From positions 5,642,001 through 5,706,000 of the forward strand of contig NC_013131.1 in NCBI RefSeq assembly GCF_000024025.1: DNA of 64,000 nucleotides. The letters run 5' to 3'. The DNA comes from Catenulispora acidiphila DSM 44928 (GTDB taxonomy: Bacteria > Actinomycetota > Actinomycetes > Streptomycetales > Catenulisporaceae). Both the position numbers and the translations under genes were made by a program. Below, piece after piece: positions 6,321 through 49,236 of this stretch. Positions within the stretch are counted from its first letter, which is position 1, and each line of letters starts with the position of its first letter. The notes beneath the pieces are model-generated. The model saw only the letters and a program-made list of their open reading frames with translations. It made no database searches and was not told the origin of the DNA.

Positions 6321-8255
6321 ATGACGAACCCTGTGTCCCGACGCGCCGTGCTGTCCGGCACGGCGGCGGCAATAGCCGCCACGAGTCTCACCGCCGGCGG
6401 CGAGAGCCCTGCCGCCGCCGTACAAACCGCTGCCGCGCAAGCCAATCCGCTGGTACCCCTCCGGATCCCGAAGCTGGACCAGGGCATGTGGCAGCAGCCC
6501 GACGCGACCATCCAGTGGCTGCGCGACACCCGGCTGGGCATGTTCATCCACTGGGGCGTCTACGCCGGCCCGGCACACGGCGAGTGGTACATGCACTCGG
6601 CCGCGATCACTCCGGCTGCCTACCAGAACTTCGTCACGCAGTCCTCGCCGCAGCAGTTCACCGCCGACGCCTACAAGCCCTCCGACTGGGCCGCCCTGGC
6701 CAAGCAGCTCGGCGCCGGCTACACCGTGCTGACCGCCCGACACCACGACGGCTTCGCGCTGTGGCCCAGCACCTACCCCGCCGGCTGGAACGCCGGACAG
6801 GCACCGCTGAAGCGCGATTTCGTCAAGGACTACGTCGCTGCGGTCCGCGCGGCAGGTCTGCGGGTCGGCCTGTACTACTCCCCGATCAACTGGCGCTACC
6901 CCGGCTACTACGACGTCACCGGTACCAACTGCGCACCCAACCCGTGGGGCTACACCACCGACCCGGCGCACCACGAGAACGCGCGCCTGATGAAGGAGGA
7001 GGTCTATCAGTGCGTCAAGGAACTGGTGACCCAGTACGGCGCGCTCGACGACATCTGGTGGGACGGCGGCTGGCTGGCCGAGCAGGGCAGCGACGCCGAC
7101 GCGTCGTTCTTCTGGGAGCCGGGCCGCTACCGGGACTCCGGTAACGGCTGGCAGGTGGACGCCGCCTACGGCGCCACCGAGACCGGCACCGGACTGCCGC
7201 TGGGACTCGCCGGCCTGGTGCGCCAGAGCCAGCCGACGGCGCTGGCCTCGCCCCGGTCGGGCTGGGTCGGCGACTACGACGTCGACGAGGGCGGCTCCGT
7301 GCCCGCCGGCCGCCTGCGGTCCGGCCACCTGGTGCAGAAGACGTTCAGCGTCGGCAGCACCTGGGGCTACAACTCCGACGGCGCCGTGATGAGCCACGCC
7401 TCGGCCATGGCCTTGCTGGTCAACAGTTTCATCCGGGACATGTGTGTGCTGATCAACGTGGGACCGGACCGCCACGGTACCGTCCCGGCGAATCAGGCCG
7501 CCCTCATGCAACAGCTGGGCACGTTCATGAAAGCCAACGGCGAAGCGGTCTACAACACCCGCGGCGGACCATGGGACCCGGTGGACGGCCAGTACGGCTT
7601 CACCTTCAGCGGACAGACCGTCTACGTCCATCTCCTGCCCGGCTACTCCGGAAGCAGCTTCACCACGCCGGCACTGGGCGATGCCCGCGCCGTCCGAGCC
7701 TACGACGTGGTCTCACACGCCCCGCTCACCCTCGGTACCGGTTCCGGAAACCAGGCCACGATCAGCGGTATCGACCGCACCCGCTACCCGGACGACACCG
7801 TCGTCGCGCTCGTCCTGGACCGGACGGTCGTCCCCGCCGACATCGCCCTGGGCCGCACCGCCGGCGCGGACAGCGTCGAGACCGCCCACGGCAACCTCGC
7901 CTCCCACGCCGTGGACGGCGACACCTCCACCCGCTGGTGTGCGAGCGACGGTGCCGCCGGCCACTGGCTGACCGTGGACCTCGGCGGCGTCCACACCGTC
8001 ACCGGGGCGCGCGTCGCCTGGGAATTCGGTGGACACCGGTACGGGTACCGGATCGACGGCTCCACCGACGGCACGTCCTGGACGACGCTTTCCGACCAGA
8101 GCGCGACCGGCAGCACCTCCCAAGTCCAGACCGTCGCCTTCACCGCGGCCACGCGCCACCTGCGGATCACCGTCACCGCCCTGGACGCCGGCTGCTGGGC
8201 TTCGATCCGTTCCTTCGAGGTCTACGACCGGGCCTTCTACGATCCTTCGCTGTAG
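6321..8255 (+). CDS. GH29 alpha-L-fucosidase with C-terminal F5/8-type C (discoidin) domain
   Basis: Exported exo-enzyme that removes terminal alpha-L-fucose. The N-terminus has a twin-arginine motif (SRRAVLSG, residues 6-13), so it is probably Tat-exported folded. The GH29 domain is clear: RLGMFIHWGVYAGP near 71, TARHHDGFALWPS near 138, and Asp248 in DDIWWDGGW as the likely nucleophile. Residues from about 510 form a discoidin-type carbohydrate-binding domain (ALGRTAGADSVE, STRWCASDG). The ATG at 6321 follows GGAG at 7 bases; an upstream in-frame start at 6270 has no such site. Its 3' end overlaps the convergent AKR gene by 19 bases, linking it to the fucose operon. Confidence 0.92.
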   Translation: MTNPVSRRAVLSGTAAAIAATSLTAGGESPAAAVQTAAAQANPLVPLRIPKLDQGMWQQPDATIQWLRDTRLGMFIHWGVYAGPAHGEWYMHSAAITPAAYQNFVTQSSPQQFTADAYKPSDWAALAKQLGAGYTVLTARHHDGFALWPSTYPAGWNAGQAPLKRDFVKDYVAAVRAAGLRVGLYYSPINWRYPGYYDVTGTNCAPNPWGYTTDPAHHENARLMKEEVYQCVKELVTQYGALDDIWWDGGWLAEQGSDADASFFWEPGRYRDSGNGWQVDAAYGATETGTGLPLGLAGLVRQSQPTALASPRSGWVGDYDVDEGGSVPAGRLRSGHLVQKTFSVGSTWGYNSDGAVMSHASAMALLVNSFIRDMCVLINVGPDRHGTVPANQAALMQQLGTFMKANGEAVYNTRGGPWDPVDGQYGFTFSGQTVYVHLLPGYSGSSFTTPALGDARAVRAYDVVSHAPLTLGTGSGNQATISGIDRTRYPDDTVVALVLDRTVVPADIALGRTAGADSVETAHGNLASHAVDGDTSTRWCASDGAAGHWLTVDLGGVHTVTGARVAWEFGGHRYGYRIDGSTDGTSWTTLSDQSATGSTSQVQTVAFTAATRHLRITVTALDAGCWASIRSFEVYDRAFYDPSL

Positions 8256-9217
8256 GTGATCAGTCCCAGCGACCCCAGGTAGGCGAACAAGGCTTGGGGG
8301 ACGCTCGACCGGTGGAGCTCGATGTTGCGCGCCACCTGCCGAGAGGTCCGCATTCCGAGCGTGACGTTGACGACAGCGGGGTGGGTGAACGGAAAGGCGA
8401 TGGCCGCGGCGGGCAGCGTCGTCCCATGGGCTTCGCAGACCTCGGCGATCATCCGGGCGCGGTCGACGAGGTCTGCGGGCGCGTCGCCGTAGTCGTACTT
8501 CATCCCGGCGCCCGGCCGGTCGCCCGCCAACAGACCGGAGTTGAAGACGCCGACCGCGACGACGCTCTTCCCCTGCTCGATCGCGGCCGGCAGCACGTCC
8601 TCCAGGGCGCTCTGGTCGAGCAGGGTGTACCGGCCGGCCAGCATGACCACGTCCGCGGCGGTCTCCCGCAGGAAGCGGGTGAGCATCGCGGACTGGTTCA
8701 TGCCGGCGCCGATCGCGCCGACGACGCCCTCGTCGCGCAGCTGCGCGAGGGTGGGCATGGCCTCGTCGGCGGCCTGCTGCCAGTGGTCGTCGGGATCGTG
8801 CAGGTAGACGATGTCGAGGCGGTCCGTCCCGAGGCGGTCCAGGCTCGCTTCGATGGAGCGCAGGACGCCGTCCTTGCTGAAGTCCCACTTCCTGCGGACT
8901 GTGTCCGGGACGGCGAAACCGTCGCTGTCACGGCCGGTGGGGTAGTCGTTGGGGACGAGCAGCCGCCCGACTTTGGACGACAGCACATACTCGTCTCGAG
9001 GGTGGTCGCTCAGCACGGCGCCGAGGCGGCGTTCGGACAGCCCGAGTCCGTAGTGCGGCGCGGTGTCGAAGGAGCGGATCCCGGCGTCCCAGGCCGCGGC
9101 GACCGCGGCTTCGGCATCGTCGTCGGAGACCGGCCGGTACAGGTTCCCGATGACCGATCCCCCGAACCCGAGCTCGGTCAGGGCCAGCAGCGTGCCCGCG
9201 ATCGTCCGGCGGTTCAT
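8237..9217 (-). CDS. Aldo/keto reductase, L-fucose dehydrogenase / aldose 1-dehydrogenase type
   Basis: Cytosolic NAD(P)-dependent oxidation of an aldose, probably L-fucose, to its 1,5-lactone. The 326-residue sequence has the features of the D-threo-aldose 1-dehydrogenase/pyridoxal dehydrogenase group: LGFGGSVIGNLYRPV at the N-terminus, FDTAPHYGLGLSE with the catalytic Asp and Tyr, the Lys in SSKVGRLLV, and the His in YLHDPDD. The ATG at 9217 overlaps the stop codon of the preceding SDR gene (ATGA), so translation is coupled. It is the last gene of the operon. Choosing fucose rests on the neighbouring fucosidase and mutarotase. Confidence 0.85.
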   Translation of the reverse strand: MNRRTIAGTLLALTELGFGGSVIGNLYRPVSDDDAEAAVAAAWDAGIRSFDTAPHYGLGLSERRLGAVLSDHPRDEYVLSSKVGRLLVPNDYPTGRDSDGFAVPDTVRRKWDFSKDGVLRSIEASLDRLGTDRLDIVYLHDPDDHWQQAADEAMPTLAQLRDEGVVGAIGAGMNQSAMLTRFLRETAADVVMLAGRYTLLDQSALEDVLPAAIEQGKSVVAVGVFNSGLLAGDRPGAGMKYDYGDAPADLVDRARMIAEVCEAHGTTLPAAAIAFPFTHPAVVNVTLGMRTSRQVARNIELHRSSVPQALFAYLGSLGLITYSEGS

Positions 9218-38459: not shown

Positions 38460-38561
38460 GCCGTGGGATCCCTACCTGTTGGGGACTGGGTATGGCGGTG
38501 CACGGCGCAGTGTGCCAGCCGAGCGGCATGTTAGTCAGTCCTCGGATTATCAAGATTCTAT

Positions 38562-38591
38562 AAAGTAAGAACCTTGATCCACTTCTGTCAA
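38562..38591 (-). promoter_or_regulatory. Promoter candidate of the beta-propeller gene
   Basis: On the minus strand TTGACA (38591-38586) is followed after 18 bases by TACTTT (38567-38562). It lies in an A/T-rich pocket about 100 bases upstream of the start at 38459. Confidence 0.5.
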
Positions 38592-38598
38592 GAGGTCC

Positions 38599-39537
38599 TC
38601 ACCCGAGCAGCGCGATGGCGCAGGCCAGGACAGCGCAGTAAGCGATGCAGTGCACTTGGTACGCGATGCGATCGGTTCTTGGAGTACGCGGGTAGAGCGT
38701 GAGGGCTGCGGCGGACCAGCTGGTGACGATCACGAGGGCGTCGCAGATCGCCGTGCTGGACGCGGTATGGCGGGTGGGGGCGAACAGGAGGATATGGATG
38801 GCGAGCGGGAGGACGAGTGATACGGCCACGAACCAGATGCGGACCGGCCAGTGTCCGATGATCAGTGGCAGGGTGGTGCGTCCGACGCGCTGGTCGCCGT
38901 CCATGTCGCGGACGTCTTCGATGCGCATCGGCAGGTTGAAGGCGATGGTGAGGATGAGGATCCAGGTCCAGCCCGTGTGGTCGATCGGTCCGGCCAGCGT
39001 CCAGGCCATGGCGAGCTGGGACAGGATTCCGGCGATCATGGCGAGCGGTTTGACGTAGAGGTAGTGGCGCGGGGTCGATATCAGGTTCAGGCCGATGGCA
39101 GTGCCCTGCCACAGCAGAACCCACGGCAGTGTGCCTGTGACCATGCCGAGCGCCGTGTAGAGCGCCATGGTTACCCAGAAGCGCCGCAGCAGTCCCCGTG
39201 GGGTTGTCAGGCCGGCGGGGATCGGCCGATACGGTTTGTTGAGCAGGTCCTCCGCACCGGCGCGGTACTGGTTGGAGGCGTCGAAAACGTAGAGGTACAG
39301 CGCGAACATCACACAGCTGAGGGCTAGACGTGTGGCGAGCTCCGTACCGGTGACCTTGTAGTGGACACAGGCCGCCGTCGTGAACAACAGGCCCGGGGTG
39401 AAGGCCGCGATGGCGTTGTCGACGGTGAGCCGCGCGGTGAGTTCGGCCTCGGCCCGGAGCCGGCCGGGAAGCCCGGCACGTCCGGAGAGGGGCGCATGGG
39501 CTGAAGCCCGACTCGCGGGCGTCGAGGTCGAGGTCAT
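38599..39537 (-). CDS. UbiA-superfamily protein, probable UbiA-type terpene cyclase
   Basis: A 312-residue integral membrane protein with eight or nine hydrophobic helices. The two Asp-rich motifs of the UbiA fold are aligned: NQYRAGAEDLLNKPYRPIP (Asn89, Asp97, Asn100, Arg104) and EDVRDMDGDQRVGRTTLP (Asp208, Asp211, Asp215). The central Asp of the first motif, N-x3-D-x3-D in prenyltransferases, is replaced by Ala93. An altered first motif fits the membrane terpene cyclases of this superfamily better than an aromatic prenyltransferase. Its start overlaps the P450 stop codon (ATGA). With a polyprenyl synthase and two oxygenases in one operon, diterpene or related cyclisation is likely. A prenyltransferase remains possible. 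Confidence 0.8.
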   Translation of the reverse strand: MTSTSTPASRASAHAPLSGRAGLPGRLRAEAELTARLTVDNAIAAFTPGLLFTTAACVHYKVTGTELATRLALSCVMFALYLYVFDASNQYRAGAEDLLNKPYRPIPAGLTTPRGLLRRFWVTMALYTALGMVTGTLPWVLLWQGTAIGLNLISTPRHYLYVKPLAMIAGILSQLAMAWTLAGPIDHTGWTWILILTIAFNLPMRIEDVRDMDGDQRVGRTTLPLIIGHWPVRIWFVAVSLVLPLAIHILLFAPTRHTASSTAICDALVIVTSWSAAALTLYPRTPRTDRIAYQVHCIAYCAVLACAIALLG

Positions 39538-40955
39538 GCCGATTGTTCCGCAGGGTTCAAAGCGGGGACGACTCGGGCCCGGGCCCGCATCCGCAGACCC
39601 TTGGGATGCATCCCGAAGATCGAGGACGGCTCGATCGCCGGCCCGGGAAGGGGCTGGAGTTCCCAGCGTGCGGCGATCGTCGCCAGGGCGAGGGCGATTT
39701 CGGTGACGGCGAACTGTTCACCGATGCACCTGCGCGCGCCGGCGCCGAACGGGATGTAGCCCTCATGGGTCGGTCCCGGTCGTGCCCGTCCGGAAGGTGC
39801 CGACCACCGGTCCGGGTCGAACGCCTCAGGCTGCTGATGCACCTCGGGCCGGTGGTGGATGAGGTGCGGGCTGATGATCAGGGAGGTACCCGCCGTGATG
39901 CGGTACCCGCCGAGTTCGGTGTCGGCCATCGTGGTGCGTGTGACCATTCCGGCCGGCGCGTAGAGGCGCAAGCATTCGGTGATGATGTGGCCGGTCAGCG
40001 GAAGCTCGGGCAGGTCCTCGATGGTGGCGGCGCCTTGGACGACGGAGTCGACTTCGGCGTACCAGCGGTCCCGGATCGCCGGGTGCTCGGCGACCAGGTG
40101 AAAGCTCCAGGCCAGTGTGGTCGAGGTGGATTCGGATCCGGCCAGCAGGAACAGGACGACCTGATCGCAGAGTTCGGAGTCCGAGAAGCGTCTGCGGTCC
40201 GCGCTCGTCTCGTCGTCGGCGTCCAGTTCGGCGCGCTGGAGGACGGACAGCAGGTCGTCCTCGTCGCCGGGGTGGGCCCGTCGCTCGGTGATGATGTCGG
40301 CGATCGTGGACCGCAGGCGGCCGATGGCCTGGCGGTAGCGGCGGTTGGCCGGAATGGGCAGGCGGTTCAGCACGGCTGGGGAGATGGTGTTGCGATAGAC
40401 GCCGGCGATGAACACGTTGACATCGTCGACCGCCTGCTGGAGCAGGTCGGCGGGCATCGAGGCGGAGAACATCGTCGCCATCAGCGCCCGGGCGGAGATG
40501 AGCTGCATCTGGGACCGCACGTCGATGACGTGGCCGTCTTCCCACGCGCCGACGACGGCTTCGATCTGCTCGCTCATCGCCTGGGCGTAGCCCGGTATCC
40601 GAGAGTGGTGGAAGGCGGGCTGGATCAGGCGCCGCTGCCGCCGGTGCTCGTCGTGCCGGCAGGTTCCCAGACCGTCGCCGAGGAGATCCCGCGCGCGGTC
40701 GTACAAGGGTCCTCCTTTGTCGAAGACCCGGTCGTTCATCAGGACCTGCCGTGTCAGATCCGGGCTGCACACCACGACCAGCTGGACCGGCCCGAACCGG
40801 ATGCGGACCAGGTCCCCGTGATCCGCCAGGGAGTTGATGAACGTGAGCGGGTTGCGCAGCATCGCCGCGGTGTGGCCGATCAGCGGCCAGCCGCCGGGAG
40901 CCGCGGGAACCGGTGCCGCGCCGGTCGCAAGCCCGGATTCTCGGGTCGATGGCAT
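39534..40955 (-). CDS. Cytochrome P450
   Basis: A 473-residue soluble P450. The oxygen-binding I-helix reads LLAGSESTSTTLAW, the K-helix Glu-x-x-Arg is in TECLRLYAP, and the heme-ligand loop is FGAGARRCIGEQ with Cys410 as thiolate. A proline-rich N-terminus (GGWPLIGHTAAM) is normal for bacterial enzymes. It sits 6 bases after the Rieske gene and overlaps the UbiA gene, so it is a tailoring oxidase of the same product. No ferredoxin is encoded nearby, so electrons must come from elsewhere. Confidence 0.95.
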   Translation of the reverse strand: MPSTRESGLATGAAPVPAAPGGWPLIGHTAAMLRNPLTFINSLADHGDLVRIRFGPVQLVVVCSPDLTRQVLMNDRVFDKGGPLYDRARDLLGDGLGTCRHDEHRRQRRLIQPAFHHSRIPGYAQAMSEQIEAVVGAWEDGHVIDVRSQMQLISARALMATMFSASMPADLLQQAVDDVNVFIAGVYRNTISPAVLNRLPIPANRRYRQAIGRLRSTIADIITERRAHPGDEDDLLSVLQRAELDADDETSADRRRFSDSELCDQVVLFLLAGSESTSTTLAWSFHLVAEHPAIRDRWYAEVDSVVQGAATIEDLPELPLTGHIITECLRLYAPAGMVTRTTMADTELGGYRITAGTSLIISPHLIHHRPEVHQQPEAFDPDRWSAPSGRARPGPTHEGYIPFGAGARRCIGEQFAVTEIALALATIAARWELQPLPGPAIEPSSIFGMHPKGLRMRARARVVPALNPAEQSA

Positions 40956-40961
40956 CGCCTG

Positions 40962-41948
40962 TCACGCTTCCTGTTCCTGGTAGAACCGCTGAGCCCAGCG
41001 GCGGGCGGGGGCGATGGGACCGTCGCCTTGGGCGAGCTTGGGAGTCTCGGTGACGACACGGCGACTCCACATGCGCACATCGGCCGTGACCTGAGAGTTG
41101 CCCGCCACCTTCAGCGCGAAGCCCAGGAGATCGGAGGCCGGACGCCGGGCCCAGGCTGCCGCGCGCGGCAGTCGAGTGCCGGCGAGGCGTCCGTGGGTGA
41201 TGCGACGCAGCGTCATGGCGCCGCCGCCTTCCGGAGTGAGTCCGGCGAACTCGATGGCGCTGATGCCGAGCTTCGGCATGTCGAAGCGCACGGTGACGTA
41301 TCCGAGGCCGAACACTTCCACGTGGGCGTGGGTGACCAGCTCGCTGCGATAGAAGCCGGACAGGTCGATGTCGGTGGCGTAGCGGTGGCCGTCCATGCGC
41401 GGCGTGCCCACGAGCGTCGCCTGGACGTGGTGCAGGGTGGAGAAGTGCCCGATGTCCGCGGTGTTCTCCAGGAAGTCGATCTGGTTTCCCTGGAACGTGC
41501 GAGACCAGACCGCGCCTCGGCCGCATCCGCTGAAGTCGAACGGCTCGACCTCCCAGGACGGCGGGGACCCGTTCTGATGGTGCCAGGCGAAGATGAAACC
41601 GTTCCTTTCGCGGACCGGCGTCGAGGTGAGCTGTGCGCCGCGGGGTGGCGGCGTGCCGTATCCGGTGCGGACACAGCGGCCGTCGGGCGCGAAGGCGAAA
41701 GCGTGGAAGGGGCACACCAGCAACTCGCGGTCGACGCGGGCGCCGCCCATGTGAGCACCCAGATGCGGGCAGTAGGGGCTGACGATGTGGGCCCGGCCGG
41801 TCTCGGTCCGGTAGATGACGATCTCGGACTCGGCGAACTTCCGGCTGATGACCTTGCCGGACGTCACTTCACGGCTGAACGCGACGGGATACCAGCCCCA
41901 CGGGTGCTGATGTGGTTCGGCACTCGCGCCGGTCACCTCACGAGTCAT
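40962..41948 (-). CDS. Rieske [2Fe-2S] non-heme iron oxygenase
   Basis: A 328-residue terminal oxygenase. The Rieske cluster ligands are Cys60 and His62 (YCPHLGAHMG) and Cys79 and His82 (VCPFHAF). The mononuclear iron site is seen in ENTADIGHFSTLHH, with Asp165, His168 and His173 in the usual D-x2-H-x4-H spacing. This resembles KshA and Neverland-type oxygenases that act on hydrophobic ring systems such as steroids, which suits a terpenoid substrate. The ATG at 41948 has GGAAGG upstream; a longer frame to 42023 lacks a good site. No reductase gene is present in the cluster. Confidence 0.92.
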   Translation of the reverse strand: MTREVTGASAEPHQHPWGWYPVAFSREVTSGKVISRKFAESEIVIYRTETGRAHIVSPYCPHLGAHMGGARVDRELLVCPFHAFAFAPDGRCVRTGYGTPPPRGAQLTSTPVRERNGFIFAWHHQNGSPPSWEVEPFDFSGCGRGAVWSRTFQGNQIDFLENTADIGHFSTLHHVQATLVGTPRMDGHRYATDIDLSGFYRSELVTHAHVEVFGLGYVTVRFDMPKLGISAIEFAGLTPEGGGAMTLRRITHGRLAGTRLPRAAAWARRPASDLLGFALKVAGNSQVTADVRMWSRRVVTETPKLAQGDGPIAPARRWAQRFYQEQEA

Positions 41949-42024
41949 GGCTGCACCTTCCGGACGGTTCGACGATCCAGGCCAGTGCACTGATACGGGA
42001 CCAGTGCCGTTCACTGCGCTCACC

Positions 42025-43065
42025 TCACCGGTCCCGACCGGCGATCAGATTGGCCACGTGGAGCAATTCGGCGGCAGGGAGCGGATCAGCGATCTCTGTC
42101 TGCAAGATCCCCACCGCGTCGGACAGCGCGGCGGCGGCTTGCCCGCAGGCCCAGGTTCGCGCCCCCGCGGCCTCGATGAGTTCGGCTAGCGACCGCAGCT
42201 CGGTCTCGCCGCGTGGGCGGTCGGCGTGGTAGAGCGCGGCCAGTCGTGCGCCGGCCGCGGTGCCCGAGGTCAAGGCCGCGACCACGGGAAGAGACTTCTT
42301 GCCGCGCTCCAGATCGGCGAACACCGGCTTGCCGGTCACCGCGGGATCGCCCCAGATACCCAGCAGATCGTCGACATACTGGAAGGCCAGGCCCAGCTTC
42401 CGGCCGAACGCGTCCAGCCGGCCGGCCGCCGCCGGAGTGCCGCCGCCGGCCAGCGCCCCCAGCGCGCACGCGCATCCCAGAAGCGCCCCGGTCTTCCCGG
42501 CCGCCATGGCGAGGACCTCGGACACCGAGACGTCCGCCCGCTGCTCGAAGTCCATGTCGGACCACTGCCCGGCACACAGCTCCACGCAGCACGTGCCGAT
42601 CCACTCAGCTCCCCTGTCGCATACCGGCGCAGGCTCCTGAGCCAGCAGCCGGTTCGCCACAGCCAGCAGCGCGTCTCCGGCCAGGATCGCCTGGGAGATC
42701 CCGAAAACACTCCAGGCCGTGGGCCGATGCCGACGGGTCAGGTCCGCGTCCATGACGTCGTCGTGCAGCAGCGAGAAGTTGTGCACGAGCTCCACCGCGA
42801 CCGCCACCGGGACCGCCGCTTCGGCACTGCCGCCCACCGCCCGCGCCGTCAGAAGCGTCAGCGCCGGGCGGATCGCCTTGCCGGGATCCGCAGCCGTGGC
42901 CCGTCCACGCTCGTCCCACCAGCCGAAGTGGTAGCCGCAGACGCGCCGCAGCGGTCCAGGCAGGCCGTCGACCACCGCCCGCAGCGCCGGATCCACCAGA
43001 GCCCGAGCCCACGCCAGCACCTCGTCGGCAGTGCGCGGCCGCTCGGCGACACTGGTCACGCTCAT
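42025..43065 (-). CDS. Polyprenyl diphosphate synthase (GGPP synthase-like)
   Basis: Cytosolic all-alpha isoprenyl synthase of 346 residues. The first Asp-rich motif is LLHDDVMDADLTRRHRP (Asp102, Asp103, Asp106) and the second is YVDDLLGIWGD (Asp232, Asp233), with GKPVFADLERGKKSLP after it. Phe97 (five residues before the first Asp) lies near the chain-length region, so C15 versus C20 cannot be settled by eye. Actinomycete homologs with DDVMD and GIWGDP are usually GGPP synthases. It is the first gene of the terpenoid operon and supplies the cyclase substrate. Confidence 0.9.
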   Translation of the reverse strand: MSVTSVAERPRTADEVLAWARALVDPALRAVVDGLPGPLRRVCGYHFGWWDERGRATAADPGKAIRPALTLLTARAVGGSAEAAVPVAVAVELVHNFSLLHDDVMDADLTRRHRPTAWSVFGISQAILAGDALLAVANRLLAQEPAPVCDRGAEWIGTCCVELCAGQWSDMDFEQRADVSVSEVLAMAAGKTGALLGCACALGALAGGGTPAAAGRLDAFGRKLGLAFQYVDDLLGIWGDPAVTGKPVFADLERGKKSLPVVAALTSGTAAGARLAALYHADRPRGETELRSLAELIEAAGARTWACGQAAAALSDAVGILQTEIADPLPAAELLHVANLIAGRDR

Positions 43066-43339
43066 CGTCGCATCCACCCCTCGCGAAAAGGCACGCCCGA
43101 CGTACCGGCGAACCCGAACTGCGGCGATCCCATCCCCGACCGTGACACGGCCCTTATTACTCAGTAACCACCCAATGCTGCCAGATCACCAAAGCAGGCC
43201 GGCAAGTCGGCATCCGTCTCGTTTCAGGGTGACGATTCACGCTCTTCCCGACTTATGCCTGACGGAAACCACCACGCCGATCGGCCACGAGTCTCCGTGG
43301 CCGATCGGCTTGGGCAGGCGGACGGCTTGGCCGGGCGGA
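43066..43339. promoter_or_regulatory. Upstream region of the terpenoid operon
   Basis: A 274-base non-coding gap before the GGPP synthase-like gene. It holds the 11-base palindrome TTACTCAGTAA at 43157-43167, flanked by A/T-rich bases, about 95 bases upstream of the start. I see no other gene here. Confidence 0.5.
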
Positions 43340-47193: not shown

Positions 47194-47893
47194 GGGTCGT
47201 CACCTGCCACCACGGCAGATACCTGACGCTGGACGGGCTCGCAGCGGGGCGGTTCGGCACGGCTCCCAGCGAAGGCGGCGCGATCGGCGTCGTGACGACG
47301 CGCAACTGAATGGCGCTGAAGTTCACATGGTGGGCGGCGGAGGCGCGCTGAACGGCGATGTTGCGCAGGTACGCCTGCAGCATGGCAGCCCGCTGCGACG
47401 CGGGCTGGCCGCCGGCGCCTTGCGCGTCCGCGTCCGCGTAGGCGGCCCAGGCGCGGCGCAGCATGTTCTGGGCCGTGTGGCTCGGGAAGACGTCGTGGCG
47501 CACCGCCGCGTCGTCCACGGCTGTCAGATCGATCCAGCCGCTGAGCCGCGTGGCACCGTCAGGCGCGACGGTCGAGGTCCGCGCCGAGATCTCCTGGCGC
47601 GCGGACTGGGGGTCCGGAGCGAACAGCCGCCAATCCTGCTCGAAGTACGGATAGACCCACGCGTCGATCTGCTTCCGGTACGTCTGGGAGACGGTGTTGG
47701 AGGGCGCGACGTACAGAAAGACCATAGCCACATGGACGACGGCTGCCGTCAGACACAGGGCGACCGCCGCAACCACAGCCACCTCGACCGGCCGAGACAA
47801 CCGGACCCTCGGAACCGCATCGTCGCCGCCGACCGCATAGGTCTCGGAAATATGTGGCAGCGGTTCGATTGCGGTGCTGCTCATGTCGTTCAC
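47183..47893 (-). CDS. DUF5819-family membrane-anchored protein
   Basis: A 236-residue protein with one strong transmembrane helix (VEVAVVAAVALCLTAAVVHVAM, shown here as positions about 36-60). An extracytoplasmic domain carries YFEQDWRLFAPDP, the hallmark of this family. The GTG at 47893 has GGAGA 5 bases upstream; an ATG at 47884 is less well placed. It is translationally overlapped with the HTTM gene and the two proteins probably form a membrane complex. Function unknown. Confidence 0.8.
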   Translation of the reverse strand: MNDMSSTAIEPLPHISETYAVGGDDAVPRVRLSRPVEVAVVAAVALCLTAAVVHVAMVFLYVAPSNTVSQTYRKQIDAWVYPYFEQDWRLFAPDPQSARQEISARTSTVAPDGATRLSGWIDLTAVDDAAVRHDVFPSHTAQNMLRRAWAAYADADAQGAGGQPASQRAAMLQAYLRNIAVQRASAAHHVNFSAIQLRVVTTPIAPPSLGAVPNRPAASPSSVRYLPWWQVTTHDV

Positions 47894-47930
47894 TGGTTCT
47901 CCGCAGTGTTCGCAATTCGGAGCGAAAGAA

Positions 47931-47968
47931 GGAACGCCCCGGCCACAGATATCGGACCGGGGAGTTCC
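47931..47968 (-). terminator. Hairpin after the Cys/Thr-repeat gene
   Basis: Arms 47931-47942 and 47957-47968 pair over 12 bases with one mismatch, between the stop codon at 48021 and the DUF5819 start. It separates the surface-protein transcript from the HTTM pair, at least partly. Confidence 0.6.
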
Positions 47969-48020
47969 GCCGACACGCGAAGACCTTCACAGATCACCGC
48001 GAGCGGTGTGAAGCGTCACC

Positions 48021-48929
48021 TCAGACGTCGCGCGAGTACCGCCGACGCACCAGCAGGCTGCCGACGATCAGGCACGCCGCACCCACCGGGACGAGGAAGA
48101 GCACGTTGGTACCGGTGTGCGCCATCTCCTCGGTTCCGCCCGTGGTGGCGGCAGTGGTGCGCCCGGTCGTCCCCGCGGTGGTGCCGCCGGTGGTGGTTCC
48201 GCCGGTGGTGGTGCCGCCCGTGGTGGTTTTGCCGGTCGTTCCGCCGGTGGTGGTCTCGCCGGTGGTGGTCCCGCCCGTGGTGGTTCCGCCGGTAGTGGTT
48301 CGACCTGTGGTCTCGCCGGTGGTGGTCCCGCCCGTGGTGGTTCCGCCGGTAGTGGTTCGACCTGTGGTCTCGCCGGTGGTGGTCTCGCCGGTCGTCCCCG
48401 AAGTGGTACCGCCCGTCGTGGTCACACCAGTCGTTCCCACAGTGGTACCACCTGTGGTGGTCTCACCAGTCGTTCCGCCGGTAGTGGTCTCACCAGTAGT
48501 TCCGGTGGTGGTCCCACCAGTCGTGGTCTCACCAGTCGTTCCGCCGGTGGTGGTTCCACCAGTCGTGGTTCCGCCGGTGGTGGTCCCACCCGTGGTGGTC
48601 CCGCCGGTCGTCTGGCACGGCGTGCAGCACGTCTGGCACGTCCCGCACTGGTTCTGGCATGTCCCGCACTGGTTCTCGCACGACCCACACGGGTTCCCGC
48701 ACGACCCACACGGGTTCCCGCAGGAGGCGTCCGCGGCAGGCACGCCCGCCCGCGCATGCGGCACCGCGGCGTGGCTGACGGCCGCCCTCGGGCCGGATGC
48801 CGGACCGACGGCGTCGGCCCGACCCGCCATCATCGACACGCCCGCGACGGCGAACACGACCAGCACACCGCCGCAGACGCGCGCCCCGAGCCCGCGCCGA
48901 CGAGATGTGCCGGATAAGAGAGATGTCAT
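48021..48929 (-). CDS. Sortase-anchored surface protein with Cys-heptad block and Thr/Gly stalk
   Basis: A 302-residue exported protein. The signal peptide is about residues 1-40. Residues 70-106 hold 12 cysteines, mostly in four heptads of the form C-x-N-P/Q-C-G-S/T. Residues about 107-264 are almost only Thr and Gly (TTGGTTTGG units with occasional Glu, Arg or Lys), a probable O-glycosylated stalk. The C-terminus has a sorting signal: MAHTG (269-273), a hydrophobic stretch and RRRYSRDV. MAHTG resembles the LAxTG motif of actinomycete class E sortases. No homologous family comes to mind. No sortase gene lies in the window. Confidence 0.82.
   Translation of the reverse strand: MTSLLSGTSRRRGLGARVCGGVLVVFAVAGVSMMAGRADAVGPASGPRAAVSHAAVPHARAGVPAADASCGNPCGSCGNPCGSCENQCGTCQNQCGTCQTCCTPCQTTGGTTTGGTTTGGTTTGGTTTGGTTGETTTGGTTTGTTGETTTGGTTGETTTGGTTVGTTGVTTTGGTTSGTTGETTTGETTGRTTTGGTTTGGTTTGETTGRTTTGGTTTGGTTTGETTTGGTTGKTTTGGTTTGGTTTGGTTAGTTGRTTAATTGGTEEMAHTGTNVLFLVPVGAACLIVGSLLVRRRYSRDV
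48138..48611. repeat. Tandem repeats encoding the Thr/Gly stalk
   Basis: Short degenerate units of 9 to 27 bases (GGTGGTGCCGCC-like) are tandemly arrayed for about 470 bases. They are in frame with the surface-protein gene, so copy-number change would alter stalk length without a frameshift when the unit is a multiple of three. Confidence 0.8.
48615..48722. repeat. 21-base tandem repeats encoding the cysteine heptads
   Basis: Four 21-base units occur in two near-identical pairs (GCACGACCCACACGGGTTCC twice, and a CACTGGTTCTGGCATGTCCC type twice). Each unit encodes one C-x3-C-x2 heptad. Confidence 0.75.
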
Positions 48930-49236
48930 GGCTGCACCAAATCCTTGAATGATTGTTCGATGTGTTCCACCAAGACGACCCGAACGACCGCAGTAGGCTT
49001 ATCCTGATAATCCGCCGTCACCGGCGATCACCAGTTCCCACATCCAGCAACGGCGTCGAGTAGCGCGTAGAAATCATAGCTTTGATAAAGCCGCATCCCG
49101 GGTATCTGGATAAGCCTTGCCGAGGCGATTATTAAGTATGATTACTGACGCCTGATCCCTCAGTGGCGAACCAAGGCTGTTCGTGCCGGGCGGACCGGGG
49201 TTCGGCTCGGAGCCAGCCGACCATCACACTTGATCC
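48930..49236. other. A/T-richer divergent intergenic region
   Basis: A 307-base gap between divergent genes. It is notably A/T-rich for this genome around 49065-49145, where TGATAAAG, GGATAAGC and GATTATTAAG occur; these are likely promoter elements. No gene is seen. Confidence 0.5.

Follow-up and report, generated by a model that had tools for sequence, protein, structure and literature searches.

The genome of Catenulispora acidiphila DSM 44928 is a single contig of 10,467,782 bp; the window discussed here is its 64,000-nt stretch from 5,642,001 to 5,706,000, and coordinates below are positions within it. On the minus strand, from 43077 to 38599, lie four closely spaced genes. In gene order, these encode a geranylgeranyl diphosphate (GGPP) synthase-like trans-prenyl diphosphate synthase (42025..43077, 350 aa, with a likely start at ATG 43065; Pfam PF00348); a KshA-type Rieske non-haem iron oxygenase (40962..42023, 353 aa counted from a GTG; Pfam Rieske and KshA_C); a cytochrome P450 (39534..40955, 473 aa; Pfam p450); and a UbiA-superfamily protein (38599..39537, 312 aa), predicted from its Pfam UbiA domain, motifs, tree position and AlphaFold model to be a membrane terpene cyclase. 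The two oxygenases would be tailoring enzymes. The first gap is 1 nt, or 76 nt if the Rieske gene begins at ATG 41948, which is preceded by GGAAGG and looks the better start; the second is 6 nt, and the P450 and UbiA genes overlap by 4 nt (a gap of −4 nt). This spacing suggests that the four genes are co-transcribed.

In all four genes GC content is 0.83–0.86 at the third codon position versus 0.50–0.55 at the second, as expected of coding frames. Open reading frame length is itself weak coding evidence here: in 200 shuffles of the GC-rich sequence, runs free of stop codons had a median of 243 and a maximum of 504 codons. Catalytic motifs are intact in the synthase (two Asp-rich motifs), the P450 (haem-binding, ExxR, and I-helix), and the Rieske protein (2Fe-2S cluster and iron ligands). 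An earlier description of this DNA from its letters and reading frames (the sequence-only reading) had proposed a terpenoid operon of these four genes, in this order and with overlaps or tiny gaps; the reading frames, Pfam matches, codon-position GC and spacing bear it out, and its starting coordinate for the synthase gene agrees with ATG 43065. It had also proposed that no classical terpene cyclase is present, and this holds as far as tested: the genome has four class I (PF19086) matches and one squalene-hopene-type (PF13243) match, none of them inside the window. UbiA-type cyclases are described as a minor class that the class I profile PF19086 does not detect (PMC10055836).

The UbiA protein scores modestly against Pfam UbiA (52.3 bits; cut-off 34.2), and misses every NCBIfam prenyltransferase model listed (MenA, UbiA, MqnP, haem O synthase, DPPR, homogentisate phytyltransferase or HPT, ChlG, and GGGP synthase): the best score is 36 bits against a cut-off of 296, and with cut-offs of 212–353 the shortfall is about 185 bits or more. 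Its motif I, NQYRAGAED (N89, A93, D97), fits NXXX(G/A)XXXD, and its motif II, EDVRDMDGD (E207, D208, D211, D215), fits xDXXDXXXD. This pattern matches the published signature of UbiA-type cyclases, as described for the fungal enzymes, in which NXXX(G/A)XXXD replaces the NDXXDXXXD of motif I and motif II is an xDXXDXXXD beginning with Gln; mutants of the motif Asp residues of one of these, Tps1A, are reported to lose the product (PMC9835599). An AlphaFold model (from an input alignment of 30 sequences; mean predicted local distance difference test score 94.1) has the membrane-helical UbiA fold, with Z scores of 20.7 to 6m31 (archaeal DGGGP synthase) and 20.0 to 4tq3 (an Archaeoglobus UbiA homologue); the best soluble prenyl synthases, which have the helical arrangement in common, reach 14–15. 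The fold by itself cannot tell a cyclase from a transferase; motif and tree can.

Relatives of the UbiA protein were collected by one pattern scan of a species-genome collection (84,980 species), in which 57 of 249 pattern matches proved to be related loci; with two added from plasmids, 59 were fetched in total. Diverged relatives will have been missed by the scan, since two short peptide patterns from five proteins served as queries. The tree has 65 rows: the window protein, 44 of the 59 relatives, and 20 paralogues serving as references, with labels from NCBIfam. Thirteen close copies were dropped by eye (L021, L023, L027, L029, L032, L037, L038, L050, L051, L052, L054, L059, and L065) and two relatives as fragments (L069 and L072). 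The references were drawn from 34 extracted PF01040 paralogues, of which four coincide with loci of the cyclase rows (L092, L098, L099, and L101) and ten were left out (L081, L074, L075, L077, L078, L080, L085, L086, L093, and L100); other paralogues, for which no locus was available, did not enter the set. The 20 references comprise four haem O synthases, three MenA, two each of MqnP, UbiA, and DPPR, one each of homogentisate phytyltransferase, ChlG, and a GGGP-like protein, and four weakly named or unnamed proteins. Seven of the 20 labels are loose: L084 (UbiA) is just below its cut-off, L087 exceeds only that of a UbiA-like subfamily, L095 exceeds that of a generic prenyltransferase model while its second match, GGGP, falls short, L004 and L082 are below cut-off, and L090 and L097 are unnamed.

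The window protein and its 44 relatives form one side of a branch with support 100/99 that is present in 100% of 200 bootstrap trees (99 in a quick tree), on a stem of 1.88 changes per column. The second Asp of prenyltransferase motif I, at position 93, is lost in all 45 rows of this clade (Gly in 41, Ser in 3, Ala in 1) and is Asp (19) or Glu (1) in all 20 references. The motif II Asp residues at positions 208, 211, and 215 are each present in 45 of 45 clade rows, versus 3, 13, and 15 references, respectively.

The clade includes a protein (L046) of Streptomyces somaliensis DSM 40738, a species whose UbiA-superfamily enzyme StsC is reported to convert geranylfarnesyl diphosphate (GFPP) to somaliensenes (PMC7693059). 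L046 is very probably StsC, by elimination, since the draft genome has three UbiA-family matches and the other two are a haem O synthase and MqnP. That the clade contains a characterised member depends on this identification. The window protein is 36% identical to L046 over 207 aa. It falls in a 14-row subclade marked mostly by FDxxNQ...EDVRD, with EDARD and YDxxGQ variants, whose other loci are from Nonomuraea, Amycolatopsis, Williamsia, Rhodococcus, Brevibacterium, Halomonas, and a Streptomyces plasmid; its closest relative (L016) is 54% identical.

The surroundings of the 59 relatives were compared in fetched flanks of at most 10 kb, or 12 kb for the two plasmids, and less where a contig ends. 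In 24 of 59, the UbiA gene has a prenyl synthase gene on the same strand within 500 bp, a count inflated by the inclusion of close copies, and 15 of 59 have a P450 match (hidden Markov model, or HMM, search, E 1e-8). No Rieske relative (phmmer, E 1e-3) was found in any of the 59 flanks; a Rieske protein of 33% identity is encoded on one of the plasmids (L012), about 67 kb from the UbiA gene and so outside the flank. The closest relatives of the window locus have smaller gene sets: just a synthase and UbiA pair in L012 and in L017 of Amycolatopsis anabasis, and a synthase, an ABC1-kinase-like gene, and the UbiA gene in L018. Among the loci examined, then, the combination of a UbiA-type cyclase with a Rieske oxygenase is rare.

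The synthase matches Pfam polyprenyl_synt at 199 bits, and its nearest solved structures are 3nf2 and 1wy0. Its first Asp-rich motif is HNFSLLHDDVMD, with Phe at position −5 (HNFSLLHDD), and its second is within FQYVDDLLGIW. It is 56% identical to the synthase beside L017; this and the synthases beside three other close relatives (L012, L018, and L058) also have Phe at −5, and the one beside L046 has Cys (HACALIHDD). NCBIfam gives 356 bits for the GGPP synthase IdsB and 157 for farnesyl diphosphate (FPP) synthase, both below cut-off. The only model passed, and that narrowly, is NF041169, for family 2 encapsulin cargo prenyl synthases (455.9 bits; cut-off 450). The L017 synthase scores 437 with this model, and the L046 synthase 270, its best model being NF042416 at 271. 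An encapsulin cargo role was considered and dropped despite the passing score. Cargo of family 2 encapsulins needs an N-terminal extension, and just 17 residues precede the profile match in the window synthase; there is also no encapsulin shell domain among the nine proteins scanned between 35.2 and 47.2 kb.

The Rieske protein matches Pfam Rieske (60 bits) and KshA_C (53 bits), and carries a CPHLGAHMGG...CPFH cluster motif, of the form CXH/CXXH. The iron-motif consensus of Rieske oxygenases is E/D-X3-D-X2-H-X4-H, and the window protein has this as ENTADIGHFSTLH. Its nearest structure in the PDB is 4qdc, a 3-ketosteroid 9alpha-hydroxylase (89.5 bits over the whole chain, with the best stretch covering residues 27–199 only). 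The P450 matches Pfam p450 at 247 bits, with motifs FGAGARRCIG, ECLR, and AGSEST. NCBIfam places it as a relative, not a member, of pentalenene oxygenase (420.7 bits; cut-off 800) and albaflavenone monooxygenase (356 bits; cut-off 700), and its nearest PDB entry is 3dbg (267 bits), a structure of CYP170A1.

Two further proposals of the sequence-only reading can be set against these results. The proposed terpene cyclase role of the UbiA protein is supported: the protein does not group with menaquinone, heme, or aromatic prenyltransferases but falls in the clade split off at 100/99, and its motif I is unlike that of any of the 20 references. That a UbiA-type cyclase paired with a KshA-like Rieske enzyme would be uncommon agrees with the absence of Rieske relatives from the 59 flanks. 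We consider it likely that these genes form a compact diterpenoid operon, in which the synthase makes GGPP, the predicted UbiA-type cyclase cyclises it, and the P450 and Rieske enzymes oxidise the result; the product is probably an oxidised terpene of about 20 carbons. The membrane-embedded UbiA protein would use Asp97 (motif I) and Asp208, Asp211, and Asp215 (motif II) to hold the Mg2+ that binds the diphosphate, ionise GGPP, and quench the resulting cation internally to give a cyclic hydrocarbon or alcohol, with no aromatic or lipid acceptor being prenylated. Oxidation of this scaffold would then fall to the P450, which resembles pentalenene oxygenase, and to the KshA-like Rieske enzyme. Ferredoxins and reductases for both would have to be encoded elsewhere, because there are none in the operon; a KshB-type reductase partner was not sought in the rest of the genome.

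Several observations weigh against this interpretation, or against parts of it. No enzyme of the window protein's own 14-row subclade was found to be characterised, the nearest being the 36% identical L046, and the tree was built without the fungal cyclases, the Streptomyces lydicus cyclase StlTC, or the platencin cyclase. Its HPT, ChlG, and GGGP-like (L095) references have long branches, and the tree does not settle how these are ordered with respect to the clade. By sequence profile, the closest proteins of known structure are DGGGP synthase and chlorophyll synthase, and two weak matches from haloarchaea, annotated as GGGP geranylgeranyltransferases (29–30% identity over 61%), turned up in the plasmid search. 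Motif II begins with Glu, where the fungal consensus has Gln, a small departure found in 15 of the 45 clade rows (the other 30 have Gln). In 35 of the 59 loci there is no same-strand prenyl synthase gene within 500 bp, and L016, the closest relative, has no strong synthase match, just one of 4e-10 at 9.6 kb. As to chain length, no GGPP synthase model reached its cut-off for the window synthase, and an aromatic residue at −5 does not discriminate between C20 and C15 products.

The alternative that survives best, though we think it unlikely, is that the UbiA protein is a cyclase acting on FPP (C15) or GFPP (C25), giving a sesqui- or sesterterpenoid. StsC uses GFPP (PMC7693059), the fungal Tps1A and Fma-TC use FPP (PMC9835599), and the window P450 is nearest to sesquiterpene oxidases. 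For the GGPP synthase of Sulfolobus acidocaldarius, mutation of the Phe at −5 is reported to yield C30–C50 products, but E. coli FPP synthase has a Tyr at this position, so that an aromatic residue there is possible in FPP synthases too (PMC4244643). A C25 substrate seems unlikely, because the window synthase has Phe at −5, versus Cys in the S. somaliensis partner, and the best NCBIfam models for the two also differ (NF041169 and NF042416, respectively). C20 seems likelier than C15, a preference based on the overall likeness of the synthase to GGPP synthases, as in the IdsB score.

As a second, more doubtful, possibility, the UbiA protein might, as a prenyltransferase, attach a geranylgeranyl group to a small acceptor produced elsewhere in the cell, the resulting meroterpenoid then being oxidised by the Rieske enzyme and the P450. 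The well-known UbiA enzymes are prenyltransferases, the window protein has weak profile matches to GGGP synthase and ChlG, and it retains Asp97 and the three Asp residues of motif II. The large NCBIfam shortfalls, the loss of the second motif I Asp, and the separate position in the tree argue for a cyclase, as does the gene content: Pfam and NCBIfam scans found no acceptor-synthesis gene in the operon, and at least two close relatives (L012 and L017) consist of synthase and UbiA pairs. It is very improbable that the UbiA cyclase takes over a bicyclic diphosphate already formed by a class II cyclase that is encoded outside the operon, as is reported for a UbiA-type enzyme of platencin biosynthesis (PMC10301674): the operon has no class II gene, and the genome's single PF13243 match (class II enzymes outside this family were not sought) is about 2 Mb away and has its own prenyl synthase match at a distance of 1.1 kb.

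Among known systems, the predicted diterpene cyclase is closest to StsC, taken to be L046: both belong to the UbiA superfamily and the same clade, share the motif I and II pattern, and are encoded beside a prenyl diphosphate synthase gene. They differ in subclade (QDLRD in L046, EDVRD in the window protein) and in the −5 residue of the partner synthase, and the 6.8-kb contig carrying L046 has no P450 (HMM, E 1e-8) or Rieske match. StlTC is likewise a bacterial UbiA-type cyclase, with a diterpene product, lydicene (PMC10301674), likened here by its description and not by sequence. The fungal Fma-TC, EriG, and Tps1A/Tps2A, also compared by description, have NXXX(G/A)XXXD and xDXXDXXXD motifs, and Tps1A clusters with a tailoring P450; they differ in host, in the Gln that begins motif II, and in that no Rieske enzyme is named in the portions of the source available (PMC9835599). 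For the Rieske partner, the nearest parallel is the gromomycin cluster, with three Rieske enzymes (likened by the authors to KshAB and DAF-36), a polyprenyl synthetase, the cyclase GroF, and a P450; it too is a bacterial terpenoid system combining Rieske, P450, and prenyl synthase genes, but its product is a guanidine triterpene made with another cyclase, and the text of the paper does not mention UbiA (PMC12105684). KshA itself, the oxygenase of 3-ketosteroid 9alpha-hydroxylase, shares the Rieske and KshA_C domains and the iron-ligand motifs; the Rieske gene described here differs in belonging to a terpenoid operon that includes no reductase gene, and the PDB match is partial.

Relatives of the Rieske protein were also considered as a guide to function and set aside, since their neighbourhoods do not point to terpenes. 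The nearest (L131, 42% identity) adjoins MMPL and beta-lactamase-like genes, L127 has no annotated biosynthetic neighbour, L128 has an annotated P450 and an acyl carrier protein malonyltransferase some 5–7 kb away, and L129 and L130 are records without annotation. On L130, a plasmid of Streptomyces sp. NBC_01237, a P450 gene and a KshA-type Rieske gene, each akin to its counterpart in the window, stand in tandem (6416–9005) and adjoin polyketide synthase genes (ketosynthase/ketoreductase/dehydratase and ketosynthase III); the pair may be a portable tailoring module.

A few of the UbiA relatives have unusual settings. The protein of L013, a plasmid labelled Bacillus subtilis DK01 (from a mixed culture of insect source), is identical to that of Brevibacterium oceani (L047), reflecting either recent transfer or a mislabelled record; beside its gene are a prenyl synthase gene, a second gene that bears the annotation idi and fits the prenyl synthase model as well, and a gene for an FAD (flavin adenine dinucleotide) monooxygenase. 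The proteins of L024, in a 5.7-Mb genome recorded as Kitasatospora arboriphila, and of L022, from Williamsia muralis, are almost the same, and the Kitasatospora record may be mislabelled. A UbiA gene of the cyclase type, 68 bp from a prenyl synthase gene on the opposite strand, is present in a 1.1-Mb metagenome-assembled genome of candidate division WS6 (L066), which is odd for so small a genome.

Of 99 genomes sampled from the order, 3 have the UbiA gene, and the profile search at E 1e-20 detects it in 14 of 391 in a sample that overlaps the 99, both counts including this genome. It is absent from the nine other genomes of the genus (two of them 77 and 81% complete), which also lack a close counterpart of the Rieske gene (best E 1.8e-16, 31% identity over a part). 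The gene for a flanking protein of 876 aa is present in all nine, at 79–89% identity. In seven genus regions (L175–L181), DNA similarity spans this gene and ends at window positions 38485–38564, just past the UbiA 3′ end. Five of these contigs run at least 6.5 kb beyond the break with none of the operon proteins matched there (tblastn, E 1e-8), similarity resuming in one of them at an arabinofuranosidase gene; the other two end within about 1.1 kb. Because genus similarity stops just past its 3′ end, the operon appears to be a lineage-specific block, either gained in this lineage or lost in others.

A larger gene cluster was considered and dropped: Pfam scans of the nine proteins between 35.2 and 47.2 kb showed the flanks to encode two proteins without a match, an arabinofuranosidase, an HU-like protein, and an HTTM protein. 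Rfam (gathering threshold), promoter, and terminator scans of the region found nothing exceeding chance. A perfect palindrome, TTACTGAGTAA (43157..43167, with no strand), lies 80–90 bp upstream of the synthase start and is a possible operator, a candidate based on its sequence and position; no regulator gene was identified for it. With up to one mismatch allowed, TTACTNAGTAATA occurs a single time in the 10.47-Mb genome. Farther off in the window, on the plus strand (47854–48948), is a putative reading frame that is strongly repetitive and rich in Pro and Val (PPVVVPPVVV...).

There are precedents both for bacterial cyclases of the UbiA type and for terpenoid clusters with Rieske enzymes, and the operon is best seen as an oxidase-rich form of a known type of cluster; what is distinctive here is the unusual tailoring partner and a subclade in which no characterised member was found. 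An open-access search, which misses most subscription papers, found no literature on this operon. The chances seem evenly balanced that the 14-row subclade consists of uncharacterised bacterial UbiA-type cyclases making a new GGPP-derived skeleton, and that the operon is the first known case of Rieske tailoring of a UbiA-type terpene. For the family, loss of the second motif I Asp together with presence of Asp208 provides a simple rule for separating candidate cyclases from prenyltransferases in genomes. With four genes, its own synthase, and two unlike oxygenases, the operon is a small expressible test case for the product of the subclade, and also a test of the action of KshA-like Rieske enzymes on membrane-made terpenes.

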